A DNA stretch of 64,000 nt from Prevotella pallens ATCC 700821 (GTDB taxonomy: Bacteria > Bacteroidota > Bacteroidia > Bacteroidales > Bacteroidaceae), in assembly GCF_000220255.1 (NCBI RefSeq), contig NZ_GL982513.1, forward strand, positions 62,001 through 126,000, in the 5' to 3' direction. The translations under genes were made by a program, and so were the position numbers. A model generated the notes under the pieces. That model ran no database searches, had not been told where the DNA came from, and saw nothing but the letters and a program-made list of their open reading frames with translations. Shown in pieces: positions 10,550-28,189 of this stretch. Within the stretch, counting starts at the first letter, position 1. Each line of letters starts with the position of its first letter.

Positions 10550-10666
10550 TCTACTTGTTAAAAGTGTCCAAAACTCTTTACTACTAAATAGAAGTAGAAA
10601 CAGAAATATCGGCGTTTATGTAGACAAGGAAGAGAACCTATATAACAACACATCTATATATAAGTT

Positions 10667-11999: not shown

Positions 12000-12028
12000 G
12001 CACAGCCATTCGCTAATATATACTTTTG
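11998..12028 (+). promoter_or_regulatory. promoter of the HmuY-like gene
   Basis: TTG (11998-12000), 20-nt spacer, TACTTTTG (12021-12028), 40 nt before the ATG. Confidence 0.6.
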
Positions 12029-12067
12029 CACCCGTACAATTAATTTTATATTTAAACACTATTATTT

Positions 12068-12823
12068 ATGAAACTTAAATTACTAATGGCATTAATGTGC
12101 CTTGCTGGGTTATTGTGTGTATCGTGTACAAAGAATGAAGACGGACCTGAGCCCAAACCTGTTCAACCACAAGATGACCCTATCAAAGAGACTCCAATCA
12201 AAGAGTTATCGTTCATAACACAAGAGAAGACGCTTGAAGACTACGACAAGTGGGTGTATGTAAACTTAGAAACGGGAGAAACCGTAATGAAAGAAGATGT
12301 TAGTGAACAAGAGTGGCGAACATATTCTGAAGACGGTAAACAGAAAGACCGATTCGGACAATACGACATAACCAAAACTGTAGAAGCAAGACCATCAAAC
12401 GCTCCTGAAAAATGGCACTTGGCATTCCACGTCTACGATATAAGAACTAACGGAGGCGAAGGATATATGACAGATACAACATCTATTGAAACCATTAAGA
12501 CATTGCCTACAAATGTGAAATGGGTGAGCGACGTTAAAGCATATCTCATCTACGATATGAAAGGAATGATGACTGTTCCTGCTGTATTAGGATATATGAA
12601 GAGCTATGTAAATATGGGACTCTACTATTGGATGCATAAAGTAAAAGGCACAATGGGACAATACGAACTAACTATGTCGAAGTCAGATCCTGAAAAGGCA
12701 CCTGTATTCTTAGTACGATTTAAAGATGGTAGCTACGCAATCATTCAGTTTACAGGCTTAAAGGACGCTACTGGACGAAAGAAAGAAGTTAGCTTCAAAT
12801 ATAAGTTCATTAAGAACAAGTAA
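12068..12823 (+). CDS. HmuY-family haem-binding lipoprotein
   Basis: 251 residues. Lipoprotein signal with lipobox LLCVSC (Cys20), then a Pro/Glu-rich linker. Family features are the opening WVYVNLETGETV, the WHLAFHVYDIRTNGG strand, the MHKVKGTMGQYELTMS segment and the closing VFLVRFKDGSYAIIQFTG plus a lysine-rich last strand. HmuY proteins bind haem at the cell surface in Porphyromonas, Tannerella and Prevotella. In Porphyromonas two His are ligands; homologues in other genera use Met. This protein has a Met-rich central region (residues ~165-200), which suits Met ligation, but this is inference. No HmuR-type receptor gene is next to it. Confidence 0.82.
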   Translation: MKLKLLMALMCLAGLLCVSCTKNEDGPEPKPVQPQDDPIKETPIKELSFITQEKTLEDYDKWVYVNLETGETVMKEDVSEQEWRTYSEDGKQKDRFGQYDITKTVEARPSNAPEKWHLAFHVYDIRTNGGEGYMTDTTSIETIKTLPTNVKWVSDVKAYLIYDMKGMMTVPAVLGYMKSYVNMGLYYWMHKVKGTMGQYELTMSKSDPEKAPVFLVRFKDGSYAIIQFTGLKDATGRKKEVSFKYKFIKNK

Positions 12824-12880
12824 TCTATAACAATATAACATATATATAGAGAGAGGACTAATTGCCTCGAAGGTTATTAC

Positions 12881-12914
12881 TTGCACAAGAAATACAGCGG
12901 TATTTCTTATGCAA
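12881..12914. terminator. 15-bp hairpin between HmuY-like and T9SS genes
   Basis: Arms 12881-12895 and 12900-12914 pair at 14 of 15 positions around an AGCG tetraloop. No U-tract follows, so this may be a processing or attenuation structure in an mRNA shared with the next gene rather than a strict terminator. Confidence 0.5.
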
Positions 12915-12968
12915 GAATACGATATACTTTAAAAGAAATTTAATCAGTAACAATAATTAAAGATAACA

Positions 12969-14189
12969 ATGAAGAAACTATTACGTTTAACAGTGGCAGC
13001 TCTATTGCTTGCCACATCACAAGTGAGCACTGCACAAATAAAAATGGCTCCTAACTATTTCAGAGCAGACCCTGCTGTATACAAATACAGAATGGCGAAA
13101 GTTGTGGAGTGGAAAGATACAGAAGACGAACAAATTACACAGTACGTCTACGACAAGATGGGGTGCCTTGTTAAGGAAGAATACAAAAGAAGTGAGGGTC
13201 CTATGATATATGCATACAACTACACTTACGACCAGCAAGGCTATATGATTCAGAAAGAAGAAGAAGCTTTAAAAACTGAAAATGGTGAGTCGATAATATC
13301 ATCAAGACACAACTATAAACGTAACGAATATGGATATGTAACCGAATATACTCGAGCTACGCATCACGGAACAGAACCTGACGAGAAAACACTGACCGAA
13401 GACGTTGTAATGGAATTCTTTTACGACAACAATATGCGACTCGACCACGTAGATATTCGCCAATTTGATTATCCAACTGATAAACTCGAAGAGAATGTCG
13501 GACGCGTTTGTAAAGTTGAATATAATGATGCTGGACTTGTTAGCTGTGTTAGTCAGATATATCCTGATAACAACGAATTGGTATGGAAAGAAGAATTTAC
13601 ATACGACGAACAAGGTCGGCGCATTTCTATAAAGAAAGTTCCTGGCCCTAATTACACATCACAGCAAATATTATCATGGACGTGGCATTACGATAACGAT
13701 GGCGACATAGATATACACTCAAGTAGCAACGGCTTTAACAAAGAGTTTAAATACGATAAACAGAAACTCGCCGCTGAAACATTTATGCCGCTCGAAGCTA
13801 CTGAAGCAGAATGGGCACTACAAGGTCCGCTTAACTGTACACTCTTTAAAGAATTGCCAATGGAAAAATTCTTTAAGCACGCACCGATAAGCGAAACTAC
13901 CGACGAAACAGAGATAACATACGAAGCTGTTGGTACATCAGACGGCATAAACAATGTTACATCTTCTTCTAACAATTCGTTACAAGCAAACGTTATAGAC
14001 AATCAGCTCATAGTAAATATTCCTACATCTCTTATTGGAAAAACATTGCAAATATTCAGCGCCACAGGTGCATCTATGCGCAGTCTTGTTGCAAATGGTT
14101 CACAAACTACAGTCAATATCGAGAACTTAACAGCTGGAATATACGTTGTTAATGTTGCTAACCAATCTGTAAAGTTCATCAAACGATAG
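12969..14189 (+). CDS. T9SS-exported protein with YD-like repeats
   Basis: 406 residues. Signal peptide (ends VSTAQ). Residues 45-270 contain repeated YxYDxxGxxxxxE units (YVYDKMGCLVKEE, YTYDQQGYMIQKE, YNDAGLVSCV, YDEQGRRISIKK), resembling YD/RHS-type strands. The last ~75 residues (NVIDNQLIVNIPTSLIG... ending SVKFIKR) are a type A T9SS sorting domain, so the product is probably exported across the outer membrane. Lies 145 bp after the HmuY-like gene with no clear promoter of its own, so cotranscription is possible. Function unknown. Confidence 0.8.
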   Translation: MKKLLRLTVAALLLATSQVSTAQIKMAPNYFRADPAVYKYRMAKVVEWKDTEDEQITQYVYDKMGCLVKEEYKRSEGPMIYAYNYTYDQQGYMIQKEEEALKTENGESIISSRHNYKRNEYGYVTEYTRATHHGTEPDEKTLTEDVVMEFFYDNNMRLDHVDIRQFDYPTDKLEENVGRVCKVEYNDAGLVSCVSQIYPDNNELVWKEEFTYDEQGRRISIKKVPGPNYTSQQILSWTWHYDNDGDIDIHSSSNGFNKEFKYDKQKLAAETFMPLEATEAEWALQGPLNCTLFKELPMEKFFKHAPISETTDETEITYEAVGTSDGINNVTSSSNNSLQANVIDNQLIVNIPTSLIGKTLQIFSATGASMRSLVANGSQTTVNIENLTAGIYVVNVANQSVKFIKR

Positions 14190-14261
14190 TATAAGACCCA
14201 TTACTTAGTTTCATACTAAAAAAACAAAACTATCTGTTTGATATAACCAACAGAAAACAAT

Positions 14262-14292
14262 AAAGGGAGAGCCTTATAAGCTACTCCCTTTT
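14262..14292. terminator. bidirectional terminator
   Basis: AAAGGGAG (14262-14269) pairs with CTCCCTTT (14284-14291), with an inner AGC/GCT extension; T-rich on both flanks. Serves the convergent genes ending at 14189 and 14313. Confidence 0.75.
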
Positions 14293-14312
14293 ATTATGCT
14301 ATAAATTTAATA

Positions 14313-14909
14313 CTATCGTTGCTTCTTAAGTATTCGCTGCGCGCAATCTGCTAAGACTACTACTGCCGAGGCAAGAATACATACGTCCTTTATTACCAAT
14401 CTACCGGCACCTGTTAATAACGGGAATCCATGCTCTCCACTACCAAGATCGGGAACCCATACTTCTGGTGTGGTAACAAGAAAAGACAGCGTTCCTATAG
14501 TCATTATTATTACTAACCCTGTTCCAACGAAACCAATCTTAGGGAACCAAATGCCTAACAATGTCAATATACCAAACGACATAATAGCTATACCTAAACC
14601 ACGAGAGAAGGTATAAGTGTTATTCTCTTCGTGCCATTCGTGTTTAACTTTGTTGAATTCTCCCTCTTTCAGCTTATAATCTTTATACTCTGGTGCTTTC
14701 TTCGTATAAAAGAAACTCATGAATGGACTATTAGCAACAAAAGGGACAATGCCTTCTGCCTCATAATTCCAAAATTTCAAACCACCAATCCACACAAAAA
14801 TTATAAAGATTGCAACGCGTACTAAATGAATACCTATACCTTTCAGCGATGCTGCTAATTCGAGTATAAAATGTACGAATGATGCAATTCCTGATGCAAT
14901 TTTACTCAT
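14313..14909 (-). CDS. DUF417 (YkgB/RclC-like) membrane protein
   Basis: 198 residues with four hydrophobic segments. The family signatures IGGLKFWNYEAEGIVPFVANSPF and the C-terminal TTPEVW...GRLVIKD are both visible. Members of DUF417 include RclC, tied to reactive chlorine survival in E. coli, but the biochemical role is unknown. A 45-residue insert (residues 70-105, YTKKAPEYKDYKLKEGEF) loops out between helices 1 and 2. It is followed downstream by a bidirectional terminator; single gene. Confidence 0.88.
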   Translation of the reverse strand: MSKIASGIASFVHFILELAASLKGIGIHLVRVAIFIIFVWIGGLKFWNYEAEGIVPFVANSPFMSFFYTKKAPEYKDYKLKEGEFNKVKHEWHEENNTYTFSRGLGIAIMSFGILTLLGIWFPKIGFVGTGLVIIMTIGTLSFLVTTPEVWVPDLGSGEHGFPLLTGAGRLVIKDVCILASAVVVLADCAQRILKKQR

Positions 14910-14968
14910 AAATGTTTTATTCTAAATTATTTTATCCTGTTTATTAAATATAAATAGCTAATATAATG

Positions 14969-14976
14969 CAAAGATA
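14969..14976 (-). promoter_or_regulatory. -7 box (TATCTTTG) for the DUF417 gene
   Basis: Consensus minus-strand -7 element 60 nt upstream of the start. The remaining 290 bp up to 15269 hold no gene that I can see. Confidence 0.5.
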
Positions 14977-15269
14977 AACATTTATTTTCAAACATCAGCC
15001 GAAATTATTGTATTTATTACAATATTTGCATTCATTTAATTGTCTCTAAAAAAAGAAGCATATAATTATTGTATCACCAATACCTTACAATACTAATTTT
15101 ATTGCGCAACGAAACAGGCTCTATTATAAAACTATGCAGGAACAATCGTTCGTACTTGTGCTTTGTTTTATAACACAAAACAACTTTAAGAATAAACTCA
15201 TCTGCCTTATATGGTTATTTCTTAGCAATAGTTTGCATAACAAGTAAAGCAATATTTAGCAATAAAAAT

Positions 15270-15301
15270 AGGTGTGTTCAACTGATTGTCTGAGCACACC
15301 T
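15270..15301 (-). terminator. C69 dipeptidase terminator
   Basis: Arms 15270-15280 and 15291-15301 (11 bp, one G-U) followed on the minus strand by ATTTTTATT, 35 nt after the stop at 15336. Confidence 0.8.
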
Positions 15302-15335
15302 ACTCTTCTATAAATCGCTTTAGCAATATAACATA

Positions 15336-16775
15336 TTATGCACCGTGGAAAAGATATTCAGCTTGTATATCCTTTGTTAGCTGAGTGAAGATTTTTTCTT
15401 GCAGACGATCGGCAAGTTCCATACCTTTTATAAGTATGCTGTCTGAAAATTCCTGCAGCATATCTTTGGCACGTAACGGTTGTGTCTTGTAAATTCGCAG
15501 ATATTCTTCTTCCATTTCGCGCTGTCGTTGGTCGGTTTCTGCCTCAAACTTCAGGTAAGCTTCCTTTATAATGGGTGCATATTTGTTGTAGTTCACCATA
15601 CCTAAAGTCATTACCTTACGGAATTTCCAATACGCAGAATCTACGCTCGCCTCGTTTGTTCCCTTCGTATAAGCTTCAGGATAAGAGGTTATGCCTTGAT
15701 AGAGCGGAAGGAACAAGCCGAGATCTGCCATTCCCATAGCCACATAATTTACACAGCCAATAGCCTGTGGAAGTTCGGGACGAACTTGTAAAATGTGGGT
15801 TTGAGTGGTGCGGAAGATTGATACCGGACGATAAGGTTCCTTAGGATTGCTGTGCAAATAAGGGTCGTGTTCTGTGTTATCGTAGTGGAAACGGAAAGCG
15901 CGGCGCATGTCTGCAATGCTTATGGGCTGTTCGGCTTTTGCATAAACTGGGAAGGTGTTCTTAGTAACATCGTTCTTTATGCCGGGCGAGAACATTTTTT
16001 GTAATCCCCATACACGTGGATAGTTGTAAGTGGTGTCGAGCTTTATGTCGCGTGCATAAACCTCGTGAAAATCGAATTTCCCTTTCTTTGGGTCGTACAG
16101 TCCGCAGTTTTCAGCAAATTCCAGCAAGTCGTTAGATGCCATGTAGTTTTCTGAGTCTAACGGGTCGTAATCGCGGAAGCGGCTCTGGTTGCCTGTAACA
16201 AAATACTTATCCTTCGGCATACGACAAGCCAGCCAACGGTGTCCGCATGCAGTTTCCAAGTACCATATTTCCTTATTGTCTACAAAGCCTATACCGAAGC
16301 CTTCGGCAATACCATGTTTCTCAATCAACATACCTAACCGTTCTACTCCTTCGCGCGCTGTGCGAACGTATGGCAATACAACATTGAATACAGCGTTTTC
16401 AGCGACTCCTGTCTCTACAAGCGGATCGAACTTTAGCACTGCATCGCTGCTGAAGATGCTTTCAGTAGCACTCATACCCACGCCTGCCGTGTTGAAGCCT
16501 GCGCTTCCCCAGTGGTTTGGCAAGCAATAAGGTGCCAAAGCGCCATAACCTAAGGCTTCTTTAGGAAGTTCGCACCGAAATGGACTGTCTTTCGCTACAT
16601 ACTCCGTTGCACCTTCGACGGTATCCTCGTAAATTTCATAGTTTTTGGCTTCCATAGCGTCCCAGTCTTCCGACCGTGCCACAATCATAGAGCCATCGGC
16701 TGTCATATCTTGTCCCACAATAATAGTGGTGCATTCTGATGGCAAACTGCTTATCAATACTTTGTTTTCTTTCAT
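15336..16775 (-). CDS. C69 family dipeptidase (PepD-like)
   Basis: 479 residues. Ntn-hydrolase of family C69: the nucleophile is expected to be Cys15 in SECTTIIVGQDMTADGS, which would be exposed by removal of a 14-residue N-terminal propeptide. The conserved ARSEDW and GVGMSATESIFS segments follow. Lacks a signal peptide, unlike several Bacteroidales relatives that carry one, so it is probably cytosolic and hydrolyses dipeptides. Monocistronic; a minus-strand TACATTTG box lies at 16817-16810. Confidence 0.93.
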   Translation of the reverse strand: MKENKVLISSLPSECTTIIVGQDMTADGSMIVARSEDWDAMEAKNYEIYEDTVEGATEYVAKDSPFRCELPKEALGYGALAPYCLPNHWGSAGFNTAGVGMSATESIFSSDAVLKFDPLVETGVAENAVFNVVLPYVRTAREGVERLGMLIEKHGIAEGFGIGFVDNKEIWYLETACGHRWLACRMPKDKYFVTGNQSRFRDYDPLDSENYMASNDLLEFAENCGLYDPKKGKFDFHEVYARDIKLDTTYNYPRVWGLQKMFSPGIKNDVTKNTFPVYAKAEQPISIADMRRAFRFHYDNTEHDPYLHSNPKEPYRPVSIFRTTQTHILQVRPELPQAIGCVNYVAMGMADLGLFLPLYQGITSYPEAYTKGTNEASVDSAYWKFRKVMTLGMVNYNKYAPIIKEAYLKFEAETDQRQREMEEEYLRIYKTQPLRAKDMLQEFSDSILIKGMELADRLQEKIFTQLTKDIQAEYLFHGA

Positions 16776-16942
16776 AAATACATTTATTTTAAGATGTAAC
16801 TTCGATAGGCAAATGTATGAAAAATAGTTGAATTGAGTGTATCCTTTTGTTGTTTTCTACTTAATTTACCTAATTGTAGGTAATTAGATTTTCAAAAACT
16901 AAACGCATATATGCTTTGTACCTATTTTCGTTTTTGCCTTAC

Positions 16943-17056
16943 CAATATATTTATGTTACTTTTTCGTTATCCCACCATCTCTCAACTATCGTATATCTCG
17001 CTACACTCACTCGTTGAAATGGATAGACAGACTGAGAGATGGGCTTAAATATATTG
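16943..17056. repeat. imperfect nested inverted repeat
   Basis: CAATATATTTA (16943-16953) matches the complement at 17046-17056, and inside it CCATCTCTCA (16975-16984) matches the complement at 17033-17042. The spacings are unequal on the two sides, so a hairpin would be bulged. Could be a remnant mobile element or a structured RNA; no coding capacity. Confidence 0.4.
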
Positions 17057-17163
17057 ATAATTAATTGTGAACACCTACTTAATGCAAAATAGTTGTATTG
17101 ATTGTTTATACACAAACATTATATGAACATAAGATTGAATTGTTATGTATAGTACGATAAAAT

Positions 17164-17239
17164 ATGACGTCATATTTGTTCGTTTCAGATATCTATCAGT
17201 TGCGTTTCAGATATCTGAGACGAGAGTGACAGATATCTA
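17164..17239. repeat. 22-bp phased palindrome array C (inverted orientation)
   Basis: Units begin at 17164 (ATGACGTCAT, core of an 18-bp perfect palindrome at 17160-17177), 17186, 17208 and 17230 (CAGATATCTA or CAGATATCTG), each exactly 22 bp apart. Linker sequences show the array lies in the opposite orientation to arrays A, B and E. Lies in the 748-bp divergent gap between the C69 dipeptidase and the ThiF-like gene. Confidence 0.88.
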
Positions 17240-17456
17240 AAATGCGACCAACAAACGAATGCTTTTCTGAAATCTTATTTTTGTCTCTGTAACTTATTGT
17301 ATTACATCATCTTGTAACATTTCCCTTTCAGCTTATTCTAATTCGCTTTCCAAGTATGTGAGTGGCTGTATATCAGCCCATACATCTTGCAGGATATCGG
17401 GATAATAGCCTCCGATTATGTTATAAAATCTAAAATAATCAACAATGTAATTGATT

Positions 17457-17474
17457 ATTACACTTTTGTGTAAT
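17457..17474. promoter_or_regulatory. candidate LuxR-type operator upstream of ThiF gene
   Basis: Perfect palindrome ATTACACTTTTGTGTAAT ending 21 nt before the TACATTTG -7 box at 17496-17503, i.e. over the -33 region. The same motif recurs upstream of the barrel gene at 19750, with the LuxR-type regulator gene between the two. Confidence 0.6.
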
Positions 17475-17495
17475 GCATATATGCTTTATTACATC

Positions 17496-17503
17496 TACAT
17501 TTG
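17496..17503 (+). promoter_or_regulatory. -7 box (TACATTTG) of the ThiF-like gene
   Basis: Consensus -7 element 20 nt before the ATG at 17524; the -33 position falls inside the palindrome 17457-17474, which suggests activator-dependent transcription. Confidence 0.6.
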
Positions 17504-17523
17504 CCTAAAATAATTATTTCGTT

Positions 17524-18273
17524 ATGGAAGAAAGATACAGCAGAAACAGGCTCTACGTGAGCAAAAGAGAACAAAGCATTATCAAGGATTATAAGATATT
17601 CCTTGGTGGTGCTGGTATTGGCAGTATTATTGCTGAATGCGCTTTAAGATTTGGTTTCGAACATATCACTATTGTTGATGGAGACAAGGTGGAGGAAAGC
17701 AACCTTAATAGGCAGAACTATACAGAGAATGACATTGGCAGATACAAGGCAGAATGTTTGGCAGAGCGTTTGCAAAGTATCAATCCTGATGCGCAGATAG
17801 ATTACCATACAGAGTTCTTGACTCCTGATAACATCGAAGAGATGCTGAATGGTCATGATGTGGCTATCAATGCATTGGACTTTAAGGACGATACACCTTT
17901 TGTCTTTGATAGGATTTGCAAAGAAAGAAAAATCCCAGTACTGCACCCATACAACTTTGGTTGGGCTGGCTTTGTTACGATTGTAGACCCATTGGGGCAT
18001 TCTTTATCAGAATTGGCAGACGATCCTAAAGGATTTGAATTAAAGGTAGCAGAGTATGTAACCGGGCATGGGGCTTTCTGGAATCAACCTAAAGAGTGGT
18101 TGGATAAAATCGTTACTCAATATAGAGAAGAAAGCGAAATGCTACCACCTCCACAACTGTCCATAGCATCATGGATTGCAGCAGGATTATGCACAACGGC
18201 AATGTACAATCTTGCTACAGGAAAACCTGTAAACTATTTCCCCAAATTCTATCTCTCTTCACTTTTGCCGTAA
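17524..18273 (+). CDS. stand-alone ThiF/MoeB/E1-like adenylyltransferase
   Basis: 249 residues. Rossmann-type ATP site GGAGIGS (28-34), acidic VDGD (51-54), NLNRQ with the conserved Arg (60-64), Lys75 in GRYKAE and Asp119 in NALDF: all positions needed to adenylate a C-terminus or carboxylate. The two CxxC zinc pairs of MoeB/ThiF are absent, and I see no obvious catalytic Cys in the crossover region, so it may adenylate without forming a thioester. No ThiS, MoaD or peptide gene is adjacent. It ends 10 bp before the convergent LuxR-type regulator and shares with the nearby barrel gene an operator-like motif. Substrate unknown. Confidence 0.88.
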   Translation: MEERYSRNRLYVSKREQSIIKDYKIFLGGAGIGSIIAECALRFGFEHITIVDGDKVEESNLNRQNYTENDIGRYKAECLAERLQSINPDAQIDYHTEFLTPDNIEEMLNGHDVAINALDFKDDTPFVFDRICKERKIPVLHPYNFGWAGFVTIVDPLGHSLSELADDPKGFELKVAEYVTGHGAFWNQPKEWLDKIVTQYREESEMLPPPQLSIASWIAAGLCTTAMYNLATGKPVNYFPKFYLSSLLP

Positions 18274-18283
18274 GTTATTATTT

Positions 18284-19024
18284 TCAGAAGAGTTTGTTTA
18301 AGGTAGCTCTTGAAATAGCTTCGGTGATATTCGCCACGCCTAATTTGTCAAAGGCGTGGCGTTTATAGGTTTTGATAGAATCTAACGAACGGCACATTTT
18401 GTCTGCAATTTCCGTCATGGTAAGTCCTGCTGCAGATAACCGCAGCACCTCAATTTCTTCTTCTTTTAAAGACACTCCTTCACACTCCTTCCATCGATGC
18501 CCCTCGAAAGAGTATTTCCAATAGTTTCTGAGCCCATTCTTGTGGAACTCTACATGCCCCACTGTTTTATGTGAAGATAGTGATACGACACACATACCAA
18601 TCCATATCTTGCCCTCATCTGTCAATAGAATGGGAGTAAGCTGGTGATTAATCAACTTACTTTTTGTTCCACTCTTCAGATGAAAATGATATGACATGGA
18701 ACATTGGTATTTATCAACATTGTCGAAAGTATCAAAGAACTTAAAACCACTTCTGTTCAATTCAACAAGCATTTTTTGCTCGTCTTCTGGTACATATTTC
18801 AAATAAAAACTATATCCCAATTCCTTCACCTCCTTTGCTGTATGACCACAAAGAAACAAAGGGTTGTCCGACACATAAAGAAATTCCTGCCTGTAATAGT
18901 CTATCAAATAAACACTCTGATAGGTAACACGAGCAAAAGCCTCTACGGTATGAATCAATGTTGACAATATATTTGAATCATAATCTGGTGCATTATGCAC
19001 AGTGTTCGATGCTATAAAGATCAC
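18284..19024 (-). CDS. PAS-like/LuxR-type transcriptional regulator
   Basis: 246 residues reading from GTG at 19024. The N-terminal ~170 residues look like a PAS-type sensor (SVYLIDYYRQEFLYVSDNP... YVPEDEQ). The C-terminal 64 residues are a LuxR/FixJ helix-turn-helix (LKEEEIEVLRLSAAGLTMTE, then KTYKRHAFDKLGV). An ATG at 19046 preceded by a TAACTTTG box (19074-19067) is in a different frame and runs into a stop after 17 codons, whereas the truncated copy at 19559 begins in frame with MTDIKDFFIAS. Either GTG is the true start or the gene has a small indel at its 5' end. Probably regulates the flanking ThiF-like and barrel genes. Confidence 0.85.
   Translation of the reverse strand: MIFIASNTVHNAPDYDSNILSTLIHTVEAFARVTYQSVYLIDYYRQEFLYVSDNPLFLCGHTAKEVKELGYSFYLKYVPEDEQKMLVELNRSGFKFFDTFDNVDKYQCSMSYHFHLKSGTKSKLINHQLTPILLTDEGKIWIGMCVVSLSSHKTVGHVEFHKNGLRNYWKYSFEGHRWKECEGVSLKEEEIEVLRLSAAGLTMTEIADKMCRSLDSIKTYKRHAFDKLGVANITEAISRATLNKLF
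18332..18361. terminator. GC-rich hairpin inside the regulator gene
   Basis: Perfect 9-bp arms CGCCACGCC (18332-18340) and GGCGTGGCG (18353-18361) followed on the plus strand by TTTATAGGTTTT. Lies 58 nt past the convergent ThiF stop, so it could terminate ThiF transcripts within the regulator's coding region. Confidence 0.45.
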
Positions 19025-19066
19025 AAGTCCCTGCTGTTTTTGTCATGATACTGCACTGTAAAAATG

Positions 19067-19074
19067 CAAAGTTA
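19067..19074 (-). promoter_or_regulatory. -7 box (TAACTTTG) of the LuxR-type gene
   Basis: Minus-strand consensus 43 nt before the GTG start and 21 nt before the out-of-frame ATG at 19046. Confidence 0.45.
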
Positions 19075-19289
19075 GCATATCTTTCTAACATGTCAGCCTA
19101 ATTACATAAAAATATTTAATATAAATGTGTTTTCCGCATCATGCCAACATAAACGTACATATCACACACAGCTTCAATTAGTATGGCATCGATATATTCC
19201 TAATAGTTTCGATAGGATTCAAAAGTTTATATTGAACTGCAATTAAACTTTACTAAAGGGTGCACGGAACAATAAGAACACGATAAATA

Positions 19290-19417
19290 GAGACCTCTGC
19301 CCCCTCATACTATTTGTCTATCTCAAATTTTAACGGTAGCAGTTGGTCAGAAAATAGTCATACATCTAAGAGCATACGGATGAAAGTTGAAAGAATGGTA
19401 GGTTTTGCAGAGGTCTC
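19290..19417. repeat. 128-bp segment bounded by 11-bp inverted repeats
   Basis: GAGACCTCTGC (19290-19300) and its exact complement (19407-19417) enclose 106 bp with no gene. The right repeat abuts position 19418, where the homology between the truncated and the full LuxR-type genes begins, so the repeats may mark a recombination or insertion junction. Confidence 0.55.
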
Positions 19418-19559
19418 AGTCTATCAAATAAATGCTCTGATAGGTAACACGAGCAAAAGCCTCTACGGTTTGCACCAATGTAGAGAGTACATTGGAATCA
19501 TAGTCAGGTGCATTACGCACGGTGTTCGATGCTATAAAGAAATCTTTTATGTCTGTCAT
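19416..19559 (-). pseudogene. truncated copy of the LuxR-type regulator (N-terminus only)
   Basis: Encodes 47 residues starting MTDIKDFFIAS. Its last 40 residues match residues 3-42 of the intact regulator at 35 positions (for example VEAFARVTYQS is identical), then the frame stops within the inverted-repeat junction. The sensor core and the DNA-binding domain are absent. A TACTTTTG box at 19605-19598 could still drive it. Most likely a duplication remnant. Confidence 0.75.
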
Positions 19560-19637
19560 ATATGCTAAACGTGCTAAGGTTCTCTGATATATTTCACTAC
19601 AAAAGTACATTTTTAATGTGGAATACCGCAAAAAGAA

Positions 19638-19691
19638 TACACAAAAGTGTAAAAAACAAAGAGAGAGGAGCAAATTTACACAAAAGTATAA
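19638..19691. promoter_or_regulatory. two candidate LuxR-type operators
   Basis: TACACAAAAGTGTA (19638-19651, perfect palindrome) and TTACACAAAAGTATAA (19676-19691, one mismatch) 38 bp apart centre to centre. The second ends 22 nt before the TATCTTTG box at 19714-19721. Both match the palindrome upstream of the ThiF-like gene. Confidence 0.55.
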
Positions 19692-19713
19692 TAGGTGATA
19701 TTTGCATAAGAAG

Positions 19714-19721
19714 TATCTTTG
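19714..19721 (+). promoter_or_regulatory. -7 box (TATCTTTG) of first barrel gene
   Basis: Consensus -7 element 28 nt before the ATG at 19750; no independent -33 box, as for the ThiF-like gene. Confidence 0.6.
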
Positions 19722-19749
19722 CCGTATAAATCAAGAAACAAAAGAAATT

Positions 19750-22053
19750 ATGAATACTAATAATAAGATACGAAGCATATTAATTATAAAATTTTTTATG
19801 CTTTCACTTTGTACTTTTGCACAAATAAAAGGAATAGTAAGAGAAAAAGATAGTAATTTACCTATGGAGTTTGTAAACGTTACCCTTCTTTCTGCATCTG
19901 ATAGTGCATTTATAACAGGAACCACTACGGACTCTTTGGGTATGTTTATAATTCCAAACACTATAACCAATGGTATTATAAAGGTAAGTTACATTGACTG
20001 TAAAACCCAATTTAGGCAAATAATGCCTAAAGACACCTTATATAACTTCTTCTTACAGCCCAATGAAAACCTTTTAAAAGAAGTTATAGTAAAAAGAAAG
20101 ACCTACTTACATACAGCAAAAGGTATTATTGCTAATATTGCTTCTGGTCCATTGAGCAAACTTGGTAATGGCTTAGATGTGTTATCTCATCTTCCCTTTA
20201 TTATAAACAAGAATGGAAATATTAGTGTTTTGGGTAAAGGAAAGCCTTTAATCTTTATCAATAATAGATTGGTGCGTAATCTAAGCGAATTGAATCAAAT
20301 AAATTCTTCTGATATTAAACGAGTAGAAATCATAACCAATCCTGGAGCTGAATATGATGCTACGATAAGTGCTGTGATAAAAATAATCACATCAAAACCA
20401 ATAGGAGAAGGATTTGGCTGTTTGGCTAATGCAGGTTTAAGTATGGAGCGTAATTTGTCTCATTATAGTGGACTAAACATAAAATATCGCAAGAAAGAAT
20501 TTGACCTTTTTGCGGATTTACAATATAATCGAACATCATCTAAGGCTAAGCAACTCTCGAATCGAAGTTTTTTAGCTCAGCAGGTAAATGAGAACATAGA
20601 TATGCAAACTAACGCTCTTTCTTGGAACGGAACAGTAGGGCTGAATTACGAGCATAGAGATAAGTTAGCAATGGGTGCTATATACAAGTATACATCTTTA
20701 CCCCATGAAAATTTCACAACTAATGATTATGTTGAAGTTAAATATATGGGACATCTTAAAGATTTTATTTCAAACGATAAAAGAAAATCTGTCATATACA
20801 GCCATTATATAAATAGTTATCTCTCTTATTATTTTACAAAAGACGCATATCTAAAGGTTGATTTTGATTATATGAATTCATCTAATGAGAGTAACCAAGA
20901 TTATTCTCTTAATAGCGAGGAAATCCATTCAAAGAATCATAGTAACAATATGCTATATGCGTATCGTGCAAAGGTAATAAGTCCTTTGTTTGGTGGAACT
21001 TTGACATCTGGAACTGATGGAGCTTTTACTACAAATAAAAATCGTTATTCAATACTTGATGGTACAACCTTGCAAAATAGCCTATTACCTGCTTCCAATG
21101 TAGCTAAACAACAACTATATTCATTTTTCTCAGAATATGAAAAACCTTTTGGTACACACTGGGATATAAGTATGGGAATTAGGTTTGAATATATGAATTT
21201 TAATTATTATAACAATAGCAATAATTCTAAAAAAGATTCTCAGAAAGATAAAGGCTTTTATCCTTCTGCTGCCATTAATTATAAAAACGATAATGTACAG
21301 ATGACGCTTGCATATCGTTATACGACATTACGTCCAAGTTATTTTATGCTTAGAAATTCAGTTGAGTATAATAATCCTTATGAATATGAGGGTGGGACTC
21401 CTAATCTTTTACCACAAAAAACTAATATGTTTTCATTTTCATTAGGGTGGAATGATTTTCAAGTAATGGCAAACTATTCTATTATGAAAAATAGCACTAT
21501 GTATGTATACGATAGATACAATGGAAGTGATTCCATTGCCATTTTTCATACTCAGAATATAAAAAGCAACCAAACTTTTGATATTGCTTTATATTATTCA
21601 CCGATATGGTTTAAAATATGGAGACCATCATTTACAATAGATTTTACTAAACCTTTTTTGGTTTACAATAACAGTAAATATAATAAGCCCATTTACTCCT
21701 TGCTATTCGATAATATAATAACCCTGCCTAAGCATTTCCAAATAGGAGTAGATATGAGCTTTAATACATGTGGGAATTTAGATACAGATTTAGCTTCTTA
21801 CTCTCAGAATTTCAATTGTAACATTCATTGTGTAAAAGACTTCTTTAATGAAAAGCTACGATTAAAATTTGCAGTTAATAATTTATTTAACACAAGTCGC
21901 GAAAAGTGGAGTAAAAATACCAATAATATAATTTTAAATAAATGGAACGATGCTAATAGATGTACGTTTATCTTTACAGTAAGCTATCAAATAAATCCAT
22001 CTAAAAATAAATATAGAGGGGAAAAATCAACTACTGAATTAAATAGACTATAA
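19750..22053 (+). CDS. TonB-receptor-like outer-membrane beta-barrel protein 1
   Basis: 767 residues from the ATG at 19750; an earlier in-frame start at 19702 lies ahead of the -7 box and is unlikely. Signal peptide, then a carboxypeptidase-regulatory-like domain (IKGIVREKDSNLPMEFVNV... TDSLGMFII, residues ~25-105), a plug-like region ending VEIITNPGAEYDATISAVIKI, and a ~550-residue barrel of the OMP_b-brl type with NPYEYEGGTPNLLPQKTNMF. Such proteins import or bind ligands at the outer membrane. No SusD partner. Notably AT-rich compared with core genes in the window. Confidence 0.88.
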   Translation: MNTNNKIRSILIIKFFMLSLCTFAQIKGIVREKDSNLPMEFVNVTLLSASDSAFITGTTTDSLGMFIIPNTITNGIIKVSYIDCKTQFRQIMPKDTLYNFFLQPNENLLKEVIVKRKTYLHTAKGIIANIASGPLSKLGNGLDVLSHLPFIINKNGNISVLGKGKPLIFINNRLVRNLSELNQINSSDIKRVEIITNPGAEYDATISAVIKIITSKPIGEGFGCLANAGLSMERNLSHYSGLNIKYRKKEFDLFADLQYNRTSSKAKQLSNRSFLAQQVNENIDMQTNALSWNGTVGLNYEHRDKLAMGAIYKYTSLPHENFTTNDYVEVKYMGHLKDFISNDKRKSVIYSHYINSYLSYYFTKDAYLKVDFDYMNSSNESNQDYSLNSEEIHSKNHSNNMLYAYRAKVISPLFGGTLTSGTDGAFTTNKNRYSILDGTTLQNSLLPASNVAKQQLYSFFSEYEKPFGTHWDISMGIRFEYMNFNYYNNSNNSKKDSQKDKGFYPSAAINYKNDNVQMTLAYRYTTLRPSYFMLRNSVEYNNPYEYEGGTPNLLPQKTNMFSFSLGWNDFQVMANYSIMKNSTMYVYDRYNGSDSIAIFHTQNIKSNQTFDIALYYSPIWFKIWRPSFTIDFTKPFLVYNNSKYNKPIYSLLFDNIITLPKHFQIGVDMSFNTCGNLDTDLASYSQNFNCNIHCVKDFFNEKLRLKFAVNNLFNTSREKWSKNTNNIILNKWNDANRCTFIFTVSYQINPSKNKYRGEKSTTELNRL

Positions 22054-22120
22054 ATGAGTATTGTATTTATAAAGCAACATAATCACACTTTGATGTTAAA
22101 TTTAAGCAAACAACTAAGAA

Positions 22121-22161
22121 TTATACTTTTGCGTAGTGAAAATAAAAAAATATTACCTTTG
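22121..22161 (+). promoter_or_regulatory. promoter region of second barrel gene
   Basis: TACCTTTG (22154-22161) is the likely -7 box. TTATACTTTTGCGTAG (22121-22136) over the -33 region differs from the ThiF/barrel 1 operator motif at 3 of 16 positions; it also contains a TACTTTTG match that could itself be a -7 box. Confidence 0.45.
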
Positions 22162-22248
22162 CAACATCGAAAGACAAGAAAAGTTGTCGGCATATCATGA
22201 TGTTTACTCCAAAATTATAATAAGACAATACATATAATAAATAATATA

Positions 22249-24549
22249 ATGTTTATGAAAAAGAAAATTCTCACGTTGCTCATGTCTGGCTGCTATGGTA
22301 TTCTTGCTGCACAAACTACGGGTACGGTAGTAGATGAAAACAAGCAACCATTACCAGCTGCGACGGTTTCGTTGTTTCGTGAAAGCGAAAATAAGATGAT
22401 TGATGGAGTGGTAACTGATATGAATGGTGGCTTTGAACTGAATACGCATGAAGGAGAGAACTATAGAATAAGGATATCTTTTGTTGGGTATTCTACGCAG
22501 GAAATTAAATGCCAAAACATTTCTAAGCACCTATCGGTAGGTACAATAGTGTTGGAACCAGATAGTAAGCAGCTTAATGGCGTGACAGTGACAGTCAACA
22601 GCGTAACACAAAAAGCTGACCGACAAATTATTATCCCTAATCAGCTTCAGCGAAAGACATCAAGCAATGGTTTTAATTTGTTGCAGCATCTTCAGCTTTC
22701 ACGCATCTCAGTGAATACGCTTGACAGTAAGGTAACTACCACGATAGGAGATGCCGTAGAATTGCGTATTAATGGTGTAAAGGCGGAGATACAGGAGGTG
22801 AAGGCTCTCTTGCCAGCAGATGTATTGAAAATAGAATACTATGATAGTCCCGGTCTAAGATATGGAAATGTAGCTGCTGTAATTGACATTATCTTAAAGG
22901 AAAAGAAGAATGGAGGGAGTATCTCTGGAGAGTTGATGAACACTATCAATCCTTTAGGTATAGGAGATTATCAGCTATCGGGTAATTATCATATAGGTAA
23001 GTCAAACTTCAAGACATCTGTAAACTGGAATCGGCGTGATATAAACTGGTTACGTGAAAACATAGAAACTTTCAATGCAACGACACCCAGTATCAGGAAC
23101 TATGAGATAGGGCAAAAGACAAAGGCACAATATGATAACATCAATCTATCCATAGGATACGATTACATAAATAGCGGAAACATATTGAGTGTTACTTTTC
23201 ATGATTTATATAACAATACGCCGCATGCGGTATCTGATAGAAATTCTAAACTTATCCAGGATAGCAACACATTCGATATCATGGACCGCACCAAGTCAAG
23301 GAGCAACAATCCATCGTTAGATATTTATTATCAACATGAGTTTTCCAAGGATAAGCATCTTTTCTTTGACCTGATAGGAACATATATCAATACTAAAAAC
23401 GACCGTTTATATCGCCAATCTCAGGGAAATGCTGTACAAGAAATAACATCTCATGTCGATGGTAATAAATATTCGGCTATAGCTGAAGTTATTTACGAGC
23501 AGAAAATCAAGTATTCGCGGTTGTCATTCGGTCTGCGACATCAGCAGATGTACACAAAAAATGCATACGATGGAAATACATCCTCAAGTGTAAAGATGAA
23601 TACAGGTGAGAGTTATGCTTTTGGAGAATGGGCCTCAAAGTTAGGGAAACTGGATTATATGGTAGGTGTAGGTGCTATGAGAACCTATGTTAGCCAAGGA
23701 AATGCAAAACAGGTAAAATATATATTTCGCCCGACTATTCTGCTGGGGTATCGTTTCAACAATTATCTGTCAATACGCTATAAAGCCTATATGGGAGGGT
23801 ACGCACCCTCACTTGCCGAATTAAGCGATGTTGAACAACACATAGATATTTACCAAATACGCCGTGGAAATCCAAATCTACAGGCGGTCAGATTTTTCTC
23901 TAATGAACTATCAATTAGCGTAGAAACAAAGTATATCAGTGCAGAATGGTTTACTCGTTATAGCTATGATGATAAACCATATATGGAAGAAACAACCTAT
24001 TCGAATGGCTTCTATGTTAGGAGTTATGCCAATCAAAGAGGCTTCCATCGTCTGAACTCTCAAATAAACCTAAAAGTACAACCTTGGAAGGATTATATAT
24101 CCATTCAATTAACCCCATTTGTCAATCGCTATATCAGCAATGGTAATACTTATACGCATACACATACCAACTGGGGCTTGCGTGCCAACTTAATGGGAAT
24201 GTACAAGAATTGGTATGTAGGTGCCAATCTTGAGACAAGTTTTCATAGCTTGTGGGGGGAGACACTTAACAAAGATGAGAAATCACATAGTATAGTTTTT
24301 GGGTACAATAGAGAAAAATGGGGTGTAGAACTCCAGTTGCAGAACATCTTCAGTTCACGTTATGAAATGTCTGTAGAGAATCTTTCCCATCTTGCTCCTT
24401 ATAATCAAATGGTATGGTCGAAAAATCTATGTAAGGTTTTTGGCATAGACTTTCATTTCAACCTAAACTTTGGAAAGCATGGCTCTGAGGTGAACCAACG
24501 TATTCATAACTCTGATACTGATGCAGGCATTGTACCAACAACGAAGTAG
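22249..24549 (+). CDS. TonB-receptor-like outer-membrane beta-barrel protein 2
   Basis: 766 residues (start could also be the Met two codons later, MKKKILTLLMSG). Signal peptide ends ILAAQ. Carboxypeptidase-regulatory-like domain (GTVVDENKQPLPAATVSLF ... FVGYSTQEIKC), then a plug-like segment with VLKIEYYDSPGLRYGNVAAVIDIIL, then a ~560-residue barrel containing RRGNPNLQAVRFFSNELSIS. Same architecture as barrel 1 but diverged in sequence. Lies 195 bp downstream with its own promoter. Confidence 0.88.
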   Translation: MFMKKKILTLLMSGCYGILAAQTTGTVVDENKQPLPAATVSLFRESENKMIDGVVTDMNGGFELNTHEGENYRIRISFVGYSTQEIKCQNISKHLSVGTIVLEPDSKQLNGVTVTVNSVTQKADRQIIIPNQLQRKTSSNGFNLLQHLQLSRISVNTLDSKVTTTIGDAVELRINGVKAEIQEVKALLPADVLKIEYYDSPGLRYGNVAAVIDIILKEKKNGGSISGELMNTINPLGIGDYQLSGNYHIGKSNFKTSVNWNRRDINWLRENIETFNATTPSIRNYEIGQKTKAQYDNINLSIGYDYINSGNILSVTFHDLYNNTPHAVSDRNSKLIQDSNTFDIMDRTKSRSNNPSLDIYYQHEFSKDKHLFFDLIGTYINTKNDRLYRQSQGNAVQEITSHVDGNKYSAIAEVIYEQKIKYSRLSFGLRHQQMYTKNAYDGNTSSSVKMNTGESYAFGEWASKLGKLDYMVGVGAMRTYVSQGNAKQVKYIFRPTILLGYRFNNYLSIRYKAYMGGYAPSLAELSDVEQHIDIYQIRRGNPNLQAVRFFSNELSISVETKYISAEWFTRYSYDDKPYMEETTYSNGFYVRSYANQRGFHRLNSQINLKVQPWKDYISIQLTPFVNRYISNGNTYTHTHTNWGLRANLMGMYKNWYVGANLETSFHSLWGETLNKDEKSHSIVFGYNREKWGVELQLQNIFSSRYEMSVENLSHLAPYNQMVWSKNLCKVFGIDFHFNLNFGKHGSEVNQRIHNSDTDAGIVPTTK

Positions 24550-24618
24550 CAGATAAACATAAATTTACGTACAGATAAAGAGGTTTCGAAAATCCTTAAA
24601 AGAATAGATGTTATTAAA

Positions 24619-24665
24619 TAGTCAGCCCTTAAAAGCCTAATATTCGGCTTTTAAGGGAATGACTA
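24619..24665. terminator. long hairpin after barrel 2
   Basis: CCCTTAAAAGCC (24626-24637) pairs perfectly with 24646-24657, with outer TAGTCA/TGACTA arms (24619-24624 and 24660-24665). No U-run follows; probably the 3' end of the barrel 2 transcript. Confidence 0.65.
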
Positions 24666-24676
24666 TACTATCCGCC

Positions 24677-24707
24677 TTTGCCTACTATAGCGATTATGCT
24701 ACCTTTG
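24677..24707 (+). promoter_or_regulatory. promoter facing a decayed gene
   Basis: TTTG (24677-24680), 19-nt spacer, TACCTTTG (24700-24707): one of the best promoters in the window, yet the gene behind it is broken. Confidence 0.6.
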
Positions 24708-24713
24708 TGCAAA

Positions 24714-25012
24714 AAACTTATGTTTGTACTTAACGAAACAAATTTTCTCGGGTTTGTTACATTCCTGTAGTTACTATAAAATATCGACCGAACGATAATT
24801 GGTTCTTCCAATTGAACTACAGAAAGAATCTTACCCGGTCAAACTTTGCTCAGTTAAATTTTGGAGTTGTTTACCAAGAATTGCTTTCAATGGGCAAGTA
24901 AATATAAACTATGCTTTCACACCAAATATTTATTTGTTTACTGATTATACCTACTGTACAATCAAAAGAGCATTCACAGCTGGAATATGGGCGTAGCCAC
25001 TTCGTTATTAAA
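24714..25012 (+). pseudogene. remnant of an outer-membrane barrel gene
   Basis: Two frames give barrel-like strands: near 24770-24895 YRPNDNWFFQLNYRKNLTRS then NFAQLNFGVVYQ, and after a frame change VNINYAFTPNIYLFTDYTYC to a stop near 24995. Alternating aromatic/polar residues and N-W-F-F-Q-L-N-Y pattern fit an outer-membrane barrel protein; there is no intact start. The 230 bp that follow hold no recognisable gene. Confidence 0.5.
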
Positions 25013-25244
25013 GGATAGATAAAGCATCAATCTTCTGATATTTCTTGTCTATCAGTGGCCTGTAAGATTTTTGATCGGGAATACAATGGTCATCAGACTT
25101 ACGTTATTTAGATGATTAGGCATTACTTAAAGAACTTAAAAATAGGCATTAAAAACAATAATTTACATAATAAACTATCAAAAGTGAGCAGTATCTAAAG
25201 AATTCTAAGTAAATTTGCACACAATATAGTATAATTATTGTCCG

Positions 25245-26627
25245 ATGAAACATAAGATATATTCCCTTGTGGCAATGCTAACAATGGCACTTGCACTAAC
25301 ATCTTGCTTTAAAGAAGAAGAAAAAGTACCAGATAATAGTTCGCAAGCTACAGCAATTGTTGCTTTCTCTATTAAGGAAGTAAAGATTCTACACGATACC
25401 GTAAATGCAGCTGGAAAAGATACAGTTGTTGTTACCAAGTATAAGCCCACAACATATAGGTTCTATATAAATCAGAATAATGGAACTATCTACAACCCAG
25501 ATTCATTGCCCTATGGAACAAAAGCAAAAGCAGTGCTTACAAACATAACTGCCAAGAGTAATGGAAAAATATTTATAAGACCGCTAACCATTGGTGTAGC
25601 AACGCCTTATAAAGAGAACGACTCTATCGATTTCTCACAGCCACGCATTATCGAAGTTTACTCACAGAATGGAGAATATCGCAAAACATACACCATAACA
25701 GTAAATGTACACAAGCAACGTGGTAACGAATTTAAGTGGAACACACTTAATGATAATACAAATTTTGCATTATTCGATGATGTGAAAATGGTCAGTTATA
25801 ATAAAAAAATGTATGTGTTTGGCAAAAAAGGAAGTCAAACTATATGTTACTTCACAGCAGAGAACGATGGAAACACGTGGACACAAGTCCCAACAACATT
25901 CGGTGCCACAAGTTATAAAAGCGTAATTGCGACTGAAAATGGAATGTTTTTGCTTGACAATGGACAAATTAAACATTCGAACGATGGAGTAACTTGGACT
26001 ACGGTAAGTACTGCTCCACTACAACAATTAGTAGCTGCAGGTGCAACAGAACTGTATGCACTATCGAATAGTAATACGCTTATGGTATCGAAAGATAATG
26101 GTGTAAGTTGGACTAACGAAGCATTAGATGCAAATTCTTCTTATCTGCCAACCAACGGCATTGGTTTTATATATCAACCATCGGCTACAGATAACCAAAT
26201 AAGTAGAGTTACACTTTTCGGCACAAATACAACCAACAATTTCGTAGTGGCATGGACTAAACTAATTGATGGTACGAGTACATCTACAAGTTACAAATGG
26301 TCATTTGTTGAAACCGAAGTAAGTAGTGAGTTTCAACTACCTAAATACAACCATCTATCAGTGATTTATTACAACAATAAGGCTATGGCATTTGGAGTTA
26401 CAGACAATGGCAAGTTTGCTCCAATTAAAGAAAGTATAAACAATGGCATAGTTTGGACAACCAATAAACATTATGTTTATCCAACAGAAACTCCATCAAG
26501 AAACTTTGCAATAGCAGCAGACAGTCAGAAATATATTTGGATTGTTTGTGGCAATAAGGTTTGGAAAGGCAGATTAAACAGTGAAGGTTGGAGTAAACAA
26601 CAAACCGAATTTACAAGAAGTTATTAA
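25245..26627 (+). CDS. DUF6242-type lipoprotein with BNR-like repeats
   Basis: 460 residues. Lipobox LALTSCF (Cys21). Residues ~40-165 form a domain with a paired beta-sandwich look, then several BNR/Asp-box-like turns (NDGNTWTQ, NDGVTWTT, DNGVSWTN) that suggest a beta-propeller. The family is common in Bacteroidales ahead of the uppS-bamA block. Likely surface or periplasmic; function unknown. A TAAATTTG box lies at 25210-25217. Confidence 0.8.
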   Translation: MKHKIYSLVAMLTMALALTSCFKEEEKVPDNSSQATAIVAFSIKEVKILHDTVNAAGKDTVVVTKYKPTTYRFYINQNNGTIYNPDSLPYGTKAKAVLTNITAKSNGKIFIRPLTIGVATPYKENDSIDFSQPRIIEVYSQNGEYRKTYTITVNVHKQRGNEFKWNTLNDNTNFALFDDVKMVSYNKKMYVFGKKGSQTICYFTAENDGNTWTQVPTTFGATSYKSVIATENGMFLLDNGQIKHSNDGVTWTTVSTAPLQQLVAAGATELYALSNSNTLMVSKDNGVSWTNEALDANSSYLPTNGIGFIYQPSATDNQISRVTLFGTNTTNNFVVAWTKLIDGTSTSTSYKWSFVETEVSSEFQLPKYNHLSVIYYNNKAMAFGVTDNGKFAPIKESINNGIVWTTNKHYVYPTETPSRNFAIAADSQKYIWIVCGNKVWKGRLNSEGWSKQQTEFTRSY

Positions 26628-26676
26628 TGACTATAAGGCTCTATCGGGCAAACTGTCAAACTATAAAATAAAAGAA

Positions 26677-27369
26677 ATGAAACGTATCCTTTTCTATATA
26701 TTGTTCCTCTTAGCTTATGTTCCTATTCAGGCACAAGATGGTGAAGAGTACAGAATGGAATTGGGTGCAGGAATAGGAATGATGGGATACTTAGGCGACT
26801 TTAATAGTTCGCTAACAAAAAACCTTCAGCCAATGGGAACTGTATTAGCACGTTATGCGTTTAATCCGTATATGGGCTTAAAATTCAATATTTCGTATGG
26901 CAAGATAAAGGGAAAATCAAGCGACATCAAAACCTATTACCCAAAATTTGCTACAACACCTTACGAGTTTAATAATACATTAATAGATGTAGGAACTACA
27001 TACGAATACAATTTCTGGCCTTATGGTACTGGAAGAGAATATAGAGGAGCGCAACGTTTAACTCCTTTTGTTTTTGGAGGATTAGGTGCTACTTATGTAC
27101 AAATAAAGAACGGAGCCAAAAAATCGGCATTCTCTGCAAATGTCCCAATAGGAATAGGTGTTAAATATAAATTAGGCGAACGAACAAATATTGGATTGGA
27201 GTGGGCTATGCACTTTTGTTTATCTGATGAATTGGACGGACAAAAGGATCCATACGATATAAAAAGTAGTGGAGCATTTAAGAATACCGACTGTTATTCA
27301 ACTTTACAACTTACCGTAACTTATAGCTTTATGGCTAAATGTAGAACGTGTCATAACGAAGACGAGTAA
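26677..27369 (+). CDS. DUF6089-type outer-membrane beta-barrel protein
   Basis: 230 residues from the ATG at 26677; the earlier in-frame ATG at 26581 overlaps the preceding gene and lacks a signal peptide, while MKRILFYILFLLAYVPIQAQ is a good one. The mature part alternates hydrophobic and polar residues as in an eight-stranded barrel (YRMELGAGIGMMGYLGDF, LTPFVFGGLGATYVQI), ending in an unusual KCRTCHNEDE tail. In Bacteroidales this gene sits upstream of uppS and bamA. Part of the envelope biogenesis operon. Confidence 0.85.
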   Translation: MKRILFYILFLLAYVPIQAQDGEEYRMELGAGIGMMGYLGDFNSSLTKNLQPMGTVLARYAFNPYMGLKFNISYGKIKGKSSDIKTYYPKFATTPYEFNNTLIDVGTTYEYNFWPYGTGREYRGAQRLTPFVFGGLGATYVQIKNGAKKSAFSANVPIGIGVKYKLGERTNIGLEWAMHFCLSDELDGQKDPYDIKSSGAFKNTDCYSTLQLTVTYSFMAKCRTCHNEDE

Positions 27370-27430
27370 GATGTAGCTTTCCAGTTTATCGCATCTATAA
27401 ATAAAGAAATAAAAACAATCTTCGAAAAAT

Positions 27431-28177: not shown

Positions 28178-28189
28178 GATACGCTATAA

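Follow-up and report, generated by a model that had tools for sequence, protein, structure and literature searches.

The 64,000-nt stretch of Prevotella pallens ATCC 700821 analyzed here (the window; contig NZ_GL982513.1, positions 62,001 to 126,000) encodes a ThiF-like adenylyltransferase (thiF), a LuxR-type regulator (luxR) on the opposite strand, an outer-membrane beta-barrel protein (barrel 1) and a second barrel-like protein (barrel 2). Copies of one palindrome, the putative operator of the LuxR-type protein, accompany their promoters (Table 1). The first-pass annotation had proposed a shared operator with activator-like placement and the LuxR-type gene as its regulator, and all motif copies were found at the positions that it named (17457-17474, occupied by ATTACACTTTTGTGTAAT, 19637-19652, 19676-19691, and 22121-22136). 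The common offset of 22 nt from the -7 box that it described holds for the copies at 17458 and 19676, not for those at 22121 (17 nt) and 19637; the latter lies 61 nt from the barrel 1 box in the opposite orientation and serves the old promoter of a luxR fragment. TAnnTTTG is the Bacteroidota -7 consensus, and with the box taken as -11 to -4 according to the Bacteroides promoter consensus, the palindromes at 17458 and 19676 are centered near -41.5.

The LuxR-type protein matched PF00196 (GerE) with 40.5 bits (cut-off 23.5), and GerE was matched in all 36 aligned members. Its AlphaFold2 model (mean predicted local distance difference test [pLDDT] 89.1) was placed by Foldseek closest to 3clo and VqmA, with N-acyl homoserine lactone (AHL) receptors such as RhlR and TraR ranked lower. 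No autoinducer-binding domain was present among the five Pfam families found at E ≤1, and a remote relation of the sensor to such domains is possible. A paralog 64% identical to the LuxR-type protein is encoded at C1:679057-679788 (L062; C1 and C2 are contigs of this genome) near genes that, judged by eye, are barrel-like and encode a GLPGLI-like protein; one of these neighbors is preceded by a weak operator, which has 3 mismatches and stands 22 nt from a 5/6 box.

In the window alone the motif was mildly above chance (5 matches with at most 3 mismatches versus 2.22 expected; 5/100 shuffles as high), and the case therefore rests on the genome and the relatives. A search of the whole genome (3.13 Mb), suggested in the annotation, returned three exact copies of TTACACTTTTGTGTAA, located before the window thiF, before a truncated copy of thiF on contig 2, and upstream of another barrel gene, the third. 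The bare palindrome with at most 2 mismatches gave 13 matches versus 11 for the reversed pattern and is mostly background. Operator, 22 nt and box combined, with at most 2 mismatches, gave 5 hits at 4 places, namely, the window thiF, barrel 1, the truncated thiF, and C1:1950333, where the palindrome scores on both strands; with at most 3 mismatches there were 11 hits versus 3 for the reversed control. At C1:1950333-1950348 (L002, L054), the operator sits between the barrel gene and a sequence that, by its motif, looks like RNase P RNA. The second thiF copy with its operator (C2:18308-18778; L003, L055) is cut short and is followed by two transposase genes.

TABLE 1 Genes, putative operators and promoter boxes of the thiF-luxR-barrel region, in order of position
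Feature	Position	Strand	Remark
Operator TTACACTTTTGTGTAA of thiF, 22 nt upstream of -7 box	17458..17473	+	Position and spacing conserved upstream of thiF in L044-L049 and L052
-7 box TACATTTG of thiF, perfect TAnnTTTG	17496..17503	+	Bacteroidota-type box
thiF, ThiF-like adenylyltransferase, 249 aa	17524..18273	+	PF00899 129.3 bits, cut-off 28.1
luxR, LuxR-type regulator, 246 aa, GTG start	18284..19024	-	PAS-like N terminus (by fold) and GerE helix-turn-helix
-7 box TAACTTTG upstream of intact luxR	19067..19074	-	
Stretch with 19-nt inverted ends (84% complementary)	19282..19425	.	Between luxR and luxR fragment
luxR fragment limited to the first codons, with ATG at 19559	19416..19559	-	83% over residues 2-43, one stop
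-7 box TACTTTTG of original luxR promoter; distance to operator 19637 is 29 nt	19600..19607	-	
Operator of original luxR promoter, 1 mismatch	19637..19652	-	Partner of 19676 at 39 nt
Operator of barrel 1, 1 mismatch, 22 nt upstream of -7 box	19676..19691	+	
-7 box TATCTTTG of barrel 1, perfect TAnnTTTG	19714..19721	+	
Barrel 1, outer-membrane beta-barrel (OMP_b-brl_3), 767 aa	19750..22053	+	
Decayed distal operator TCACACTTTGATGTTA before barrel 2	22083..22098	+	Alignment with L046, L048, L112
Decayed proximal operator TTATACTTTTGCGTAG, 3 mismatches, 17 nt (not 22) from box	22121..22136	+	
-7 box TACCTTTG of barrel 2	22154..22161	+	
Barrel 2, outer-membrane-barrel-like, 766 aa	22249..24549	+	Only CarboxypepD_reg domains match Pfam

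The arrangement is conserved in related bacteria. A search based on the LuxR alignment gave 194 relatives, and 80 loci were kept for counts. A site within 1 mismatch was present in 67/80 loci, paired in 61, and accompanied at 22 nt by a box of at least 5/6 in 56. Pairs were spaced by 39 nt (80 pairs) or 38 nt (4 pairs), with no other spacing up to 120 nt. Perfect boxes peaked at 22 nt (65) and 29 nt (23), with no more than 7 at any other distance, and 5/6 boxes at 22 nt (89, versus up to 29 elsewhere). The distinct site-orientations numbered 357 versus 20 in the reversed control. All 26 rows with a perfect box at 29 nt front luxR, and the window luxR fragment is the 27th; 22 nt is thus the spacing at the target promoters and 29 nt the spacing at luxR's own promoter in the relatives. 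The ThiF/LuxR pair recurs in regions L044 to L050 with operators before thiF and in the interval between luxR and the cargo genes, and part of this arrangement is kept in L051 to L053. Among 398 genomes of the genus, our own included, exact operator-plus-box words matched 15 genomes, and the reversed control matched none. Chance as the sole source of the motif was rejected on the genome-wide and relatives' data, the window count being weak.

The operator and the regulator change together. With all four letters allowed at half-site position 5, A was found 243 times, C 186 times, and T once, and both half-sites switch letter jointly. On a tree of the sensor part of LuxR (72 labeled rows, 5 mixed-type rows set aside), the operator type, ACAC or CCC, changed four times, and three of the changes are forced by well-supported branches. 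L112, from Segatella baroniae, was labeled CCC for the tree, since its ACAC pair fronts a different barrel; in this locus (9864-18240), CCC and ACAC operators are adjacent, and the barrel behind the ACAC pair is related to window barrel 2 at 92% identity. We compared LuxR pairs whose sensors are at least 75% identical, with L112, L086, and mixed-type, siteless, and short rows excluded. The identity of the DNA-binding domain minus that of the sensor averaged +0.2 points for like operators (451 pairs; lowest -17, L113/L114) and -15.6 points for unlike operators (45 pairs, all negative, -4.3 to -34.8); these pairs overlap and are not independent, so the comparison is descriptive and no formal test. 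Where two LuxR proteins differ in operator type, most of their divergence lies in the DNA-binding domain, and this joint change ties this regulator to this site. The CCC locus L116 and the ACAC locus L128, by title from one metagenome-assembled genome (MAG), share 90% of the sensor and 58% of the DNA-binding domain; the MAG (G201) is rated about 10% contaminated, and the two may therefore come from two strains. The recognition helix carries KR in the majority of the Prevotella rows with ACAC operators and RR in those of CCC type. We rejected the idea that one K/R residue accounts for all of the specificity, as L085, L124/L128, and the Muribaculaceae-type rows differ otherwise.

The occurrence across the 398 genomes is matched as well. 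A close LuxR (at least 80% identity) was found in 15 of them, G017, with 94% over 139 residues, being counted as present. Operator and close LuxR co-occurred in 13 genomes, the operator only was found in 2, the regulator only in 2, and neither in 381 (Fisher P = 1e-20, kinship ignored). Together with the co-change and the placement conserved in relatives, this supports the shared operator with its activator-like placement and the assignment of the LuxR-type gene as its regulator.

Regions were also chosen by thiF alone. It matched 13 genomes, of which G000 and G026 were already included, 9 more were taken, and G523 and G366 were left out. All nine regions carry luxR within 1 kb, and eight have an operator with a perfect box at 22 nt, some with half-sites TCACAC or TGACAC. 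No equivalog of ThiF/MoeB reached its cut-off for the window protein among the 21 NCBIfam models listed (e.g., 100.3 versus 159). As for an anti-phage role, only partial-length matches to PADLOC E1-E2 models were obtained, and no search was made for an E2 partner. In loci from Muribaculaceae and similar (L131, L133, L135, L136, L138, L139, L140, and L142), luxR is followed by short, weakly ThiF-like matches, which may have lost enzyme activity.

Many relatives have, beside luxR and behind its own operator, a gene of about 209 aa for an acyltransferase (feeM). Pfam FeeM was the best match in all six members scanned (27.3, 26.3, 23.5, 22.2, 20.3, and 18.7 bits), of which one exceeds the cut-off of 27. 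The structure model (pLDDT 86.7, built from 13 sequences) gave a fold list headed by FeeM 2g0b (Z 15.4), LasI (14.3), and TofI (14.2), with many other GNAT proteins near 13. The gene was detected in 25/80 loci, full-length or nearly so in 15 and partial or in pieces in 10, some of the partial cases being cut by contig ends. In the nine thiF-picked regions, the FeeM-like frame was unbroken over at least 200 aa in six, broken in one, partial in one, and missing in one; in the ninth region (L211), feeM and thiF are adjacent on one strand. In our genome (G000), no match to a FeeM-like gene was found, with 5/5 other genomes matched in the same search, and its presence elsewhere in the genome was accordingly rejected.

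The remaining genes behind the operators vary. Behind the cargo operator of L069, L072, L075, L078, and L104 lies a small peptide frame, with a GG leader in the first four and KGA in L104, and next come genes for a radical-SAM enzyme, a barrel, and a C39 exporter. These three genes are arranged likewise in L205, and small peptide frames of this kind also occur in L045, L081, and L093. In other loci a barrel often comes first in the cargo, and in some a different gene does. In L045 and L072 the module has integrase and relaxase genes nearby, and it may travel on a mobilizable integrated element. Within the window, none of the seven C39 matches of the genome is found, and no peptide precursor or radical-SAM gene was seen by eye beside the barrel among frames of at least 80 aa in 10000-30000. 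Four C39 peptidase domains lie within about 10 kb at C2:705576-715363, likely a peptide-export cluster, and no operator hit is listed there.

From these features we infer how binding, activation, ligand sensing, and signaling would be connected. The palindrome would serve as operator for the window's LuxR-type protein (gene at 18284-19024), whose dimer would bind TTAC(A/C)C-N4-G(T/G)GTAA centered about 41 to 42 nt upstream of the transcription start, over the -33 region, and recruit RNA polymerase at the thiF, feeM, and cargo promoters. In relatives the protein would also drive its own gene from an operator 7 nt further out, giving positive feedback as in quorum sensing. The probable ligand of the PAS-like domain is a small molecule to whose synthesis the acyltransferase, and perhaps also ThiF, would contribute. 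The core of the module would be luxR-feeM-thiF, with exchanged cargo (peptide precursor, radical-SAM, barrel, and C39 exporter, or other barrel-led sets). We consider it highly probable that the palindrome is the operator of a PAS-LuxR activator that governs an exchangeable module and, in relatives, itself. The related loci suggest a cell-to-cell signaling circuit that this genome retains in reduced form.

Several observations speak against this interpretation. A site within 1 mismatch is absent from 13/80 loci, and 24/80 have no box of at least 5/6 at 22 nt from such a site. The off-peak 5/6 boxes (up to 29) add to this, and they arise partly from the partner operator's own CACTTTTG. The third exact operator, at C1:1950333, is accompanied by a box of no more than 4/6. 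The operator occurs without a close LuxR in two genomes, and the reverse is true of two others. In a sign test of the K/R difference, one of three independent pairs agreed and two showed no difference, significance being unreachable at n = 3. Among the 80 loci, thiF is near luxR in 31, weakly so in 8 of these, and feeM is absent from our own genome; of the 25 loci that show it, 10 have it broken or in part.

The gene content of the related loci is also open to another explanation, in which FeeM and ThiF are tailoring enzymes for exported peptides and not signal makers, with the regulator sensing something else. ThiF-like enzymes modify peptides in several families, as stated in PMC12250964, and several loci pair peptide precursors with radical-SAM genes. 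However, thiF and feeM recur, each behind its own operator, while the cargo changes, even where a barrel comes first, and L053, whose shortened thiF lacks the NLNRQ segment, still has it beside luxR. A tailoring role is thus a real possibility, with the balance somewhat against it.

The placement of the operator over the -33 region at the target promoters would also suit a repressor that covers this region until a ligand releases it, and the operator of luxR itself, 7 nt further out, could mean a different mode there. The fixed 22-nt spacing is, in contrast, what contact with the polymerase would need, and LuxR-type proteins that bind near -42 are in many cases activators; repression is therefore unlikely. 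Different genes have similar promoter stretches of about 100 nt, and this, with the integrase and relaxase genes mentioned above, would fit a motif that is no operator and travels with the promoter DNA of a mobile module as this DNA is duplicated or recombined. Such an origin is very improbable, as the 22 nt between site and box vary among promoters with the site and spacing kept, and the half-sites change letter jointly in a manner linked to the DNA-binding domain. That a different regulator binds the site and luxR is a coincidental neighbor is just as improbable: a plain inverted repeat is used by many dimeric regulators and the paralog at C1:679057 is at hand, but the operator changes with the DNA-binding domain of LuxR, the two occur in matched genomes, and luxR stands beside thiF in 9/9 thiF-picked regions.

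Under the activator interpretation, the window would hold a reduced copy of the module, with thiF and barrel 1 behind the operator, luxR under another promoter, feeM lost, and barrel 2 out of register. The operator-bearing promoter of luxR is stranded ahead of the luxR fragment, and the intact luxR lies behind a different promoter, whose box TAACTTTG has no operator at a distance of 22 or 29 nt; the inverted-ended stretch between the two may have to do with the rearrangement. Barrel 1 shares 89% identity with the barrel that a Prevotella disiens peptide operon (L078) encodes along with radical-SAM and C39-exporter genes, and equally with the L077 barrel, which a FeeM remnant precedes. Its leader DNA resembles the feeM leader of L045, as if barrel 1 had taken the place of feeM. 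Relatives of barrel 2, 92 to 95% identical over the full length, were found in L046, L048, L063, L067, L074, and L112. The operators are intact in the three loci aligned (L046, L048, and L112), but those of the window have decayed, and a 5-nt deletion relative to the three orthologs has shortened the spacing. The weak match before barrel 2 reported in the annotation is thus present at 22121 with 3 mismatches and was rejected as a working operator, being decayed and out of register. The proposed regulon is accordingly kept for thiF and barrel 1, barrel 2 has probably left it in this strain, and the first motif before barrel 1 is the old operator of luxR. The annotation's "outer-membrane receptors" are barrels, the word receptors being too specific in view of the peptide-operon relative of barrel 1. 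With luxR under another promoter and feeM lost, the loop would be cut in this strain, and the lack of feeM means that the full circuit cannot run in this genome. Its thiF and barrel 1 may answer the signals of neighbors, or the module may be decaying.

A more specific and rather speculative proposal, which we hold only tentatively, is a Bacteroidota quorum-sensing system with a two-enzyme synthase. The FeeM/LuxI-fold enzyme would make an N-acyl amino acid, ThiF would adenylate its carboxyl for cyclization or capping, and PAS-LuxR would sense the product and switch on both enzymes, itself, and the peptide-export cargo. LuxR lineages would gain new DNA-binding domains with matching operators, insulating parallel circuits, and the window strain, with luxR and thiF and no feeM, would respond to the signals of its neighbors. 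LuxR-type signaling circuits are little known in the phylum Bacteroidota. If our interpretation is right, bacteria of the Prevotella group carry such a circuit with its own synthase candidates, an operator code, and peptide cargo, and strains that respond without signaling are predicted. The site followed after 22 or 29 nt by TAnnTTTG would then be a sharp rule by which members of the regulon and hidden peptide clusters could be found. The several natural specificity switches would make DNA recognition by the regulator directly testable: strong binding of TTACACTTTTGTGTAA and weak binding of TTACCCTTTCGGGTAA are predicted for the window LuxR, with the preference reversed for the L116-type protein.

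In the open-licence PubMed Central (PMC) literature, no description of the LuxR-FeeM-ThiF core was recognized, and it may well be described elsewhere. The window ThiF aligns over residues 1-247 (E 2e-98) with the solved ThiF-like protein 9egb/9egc/9egd. A search of the same literature found no paper naming these entries, and a close relative being already solved indicates that others have worked on the family. The GG-leader radical-SAM/PCAT clusters of Bacteroidales, as covered in PMC10352776, share the precursor, radical-SAM gene, outer-membrane protein, and C39 exporter with the relatives of the window; the window itself keeps only the barrel genes. The term LuxR is absent from the main text of that paper. 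FeeM N-acyl amino acid synthase is the top fold match of the acyltransferase and its best Pfam match in all members scanned; in contrast to it, just one member passes the cut-off, and the gene is linked here to luxR and thiF. VqmA of Vibrio and phages, which senses 3,5-dimethylpyrazin-2-ol (DPO), combines a PAS domain with a LuxR-type helix-turn-helix and is among the nearest folds, a resemblance of fold only. It is not known to have a linked synthase gene, whereas a synthase-like gene is linked to luxR in the relatives studied here. From LuxR/LuxI AHL quorum sensing, the system differs in its sensor, which is PAS-LuxR-like by fold and has no Pfam autoinducer-binding match in the window protein, in an acyltransferase slightly nearer to FeeM, which our own genome lacks, and in the ThiF-like enzyme in its core. 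It shares with LuxR/LuxI the LuxR-type helix-turn-helix regulator, the operator near -42, and, in the relatives, feedback on the regulator's own gene and a linked gene for an acyltransferase of the LuxI/FeeM superfamily.

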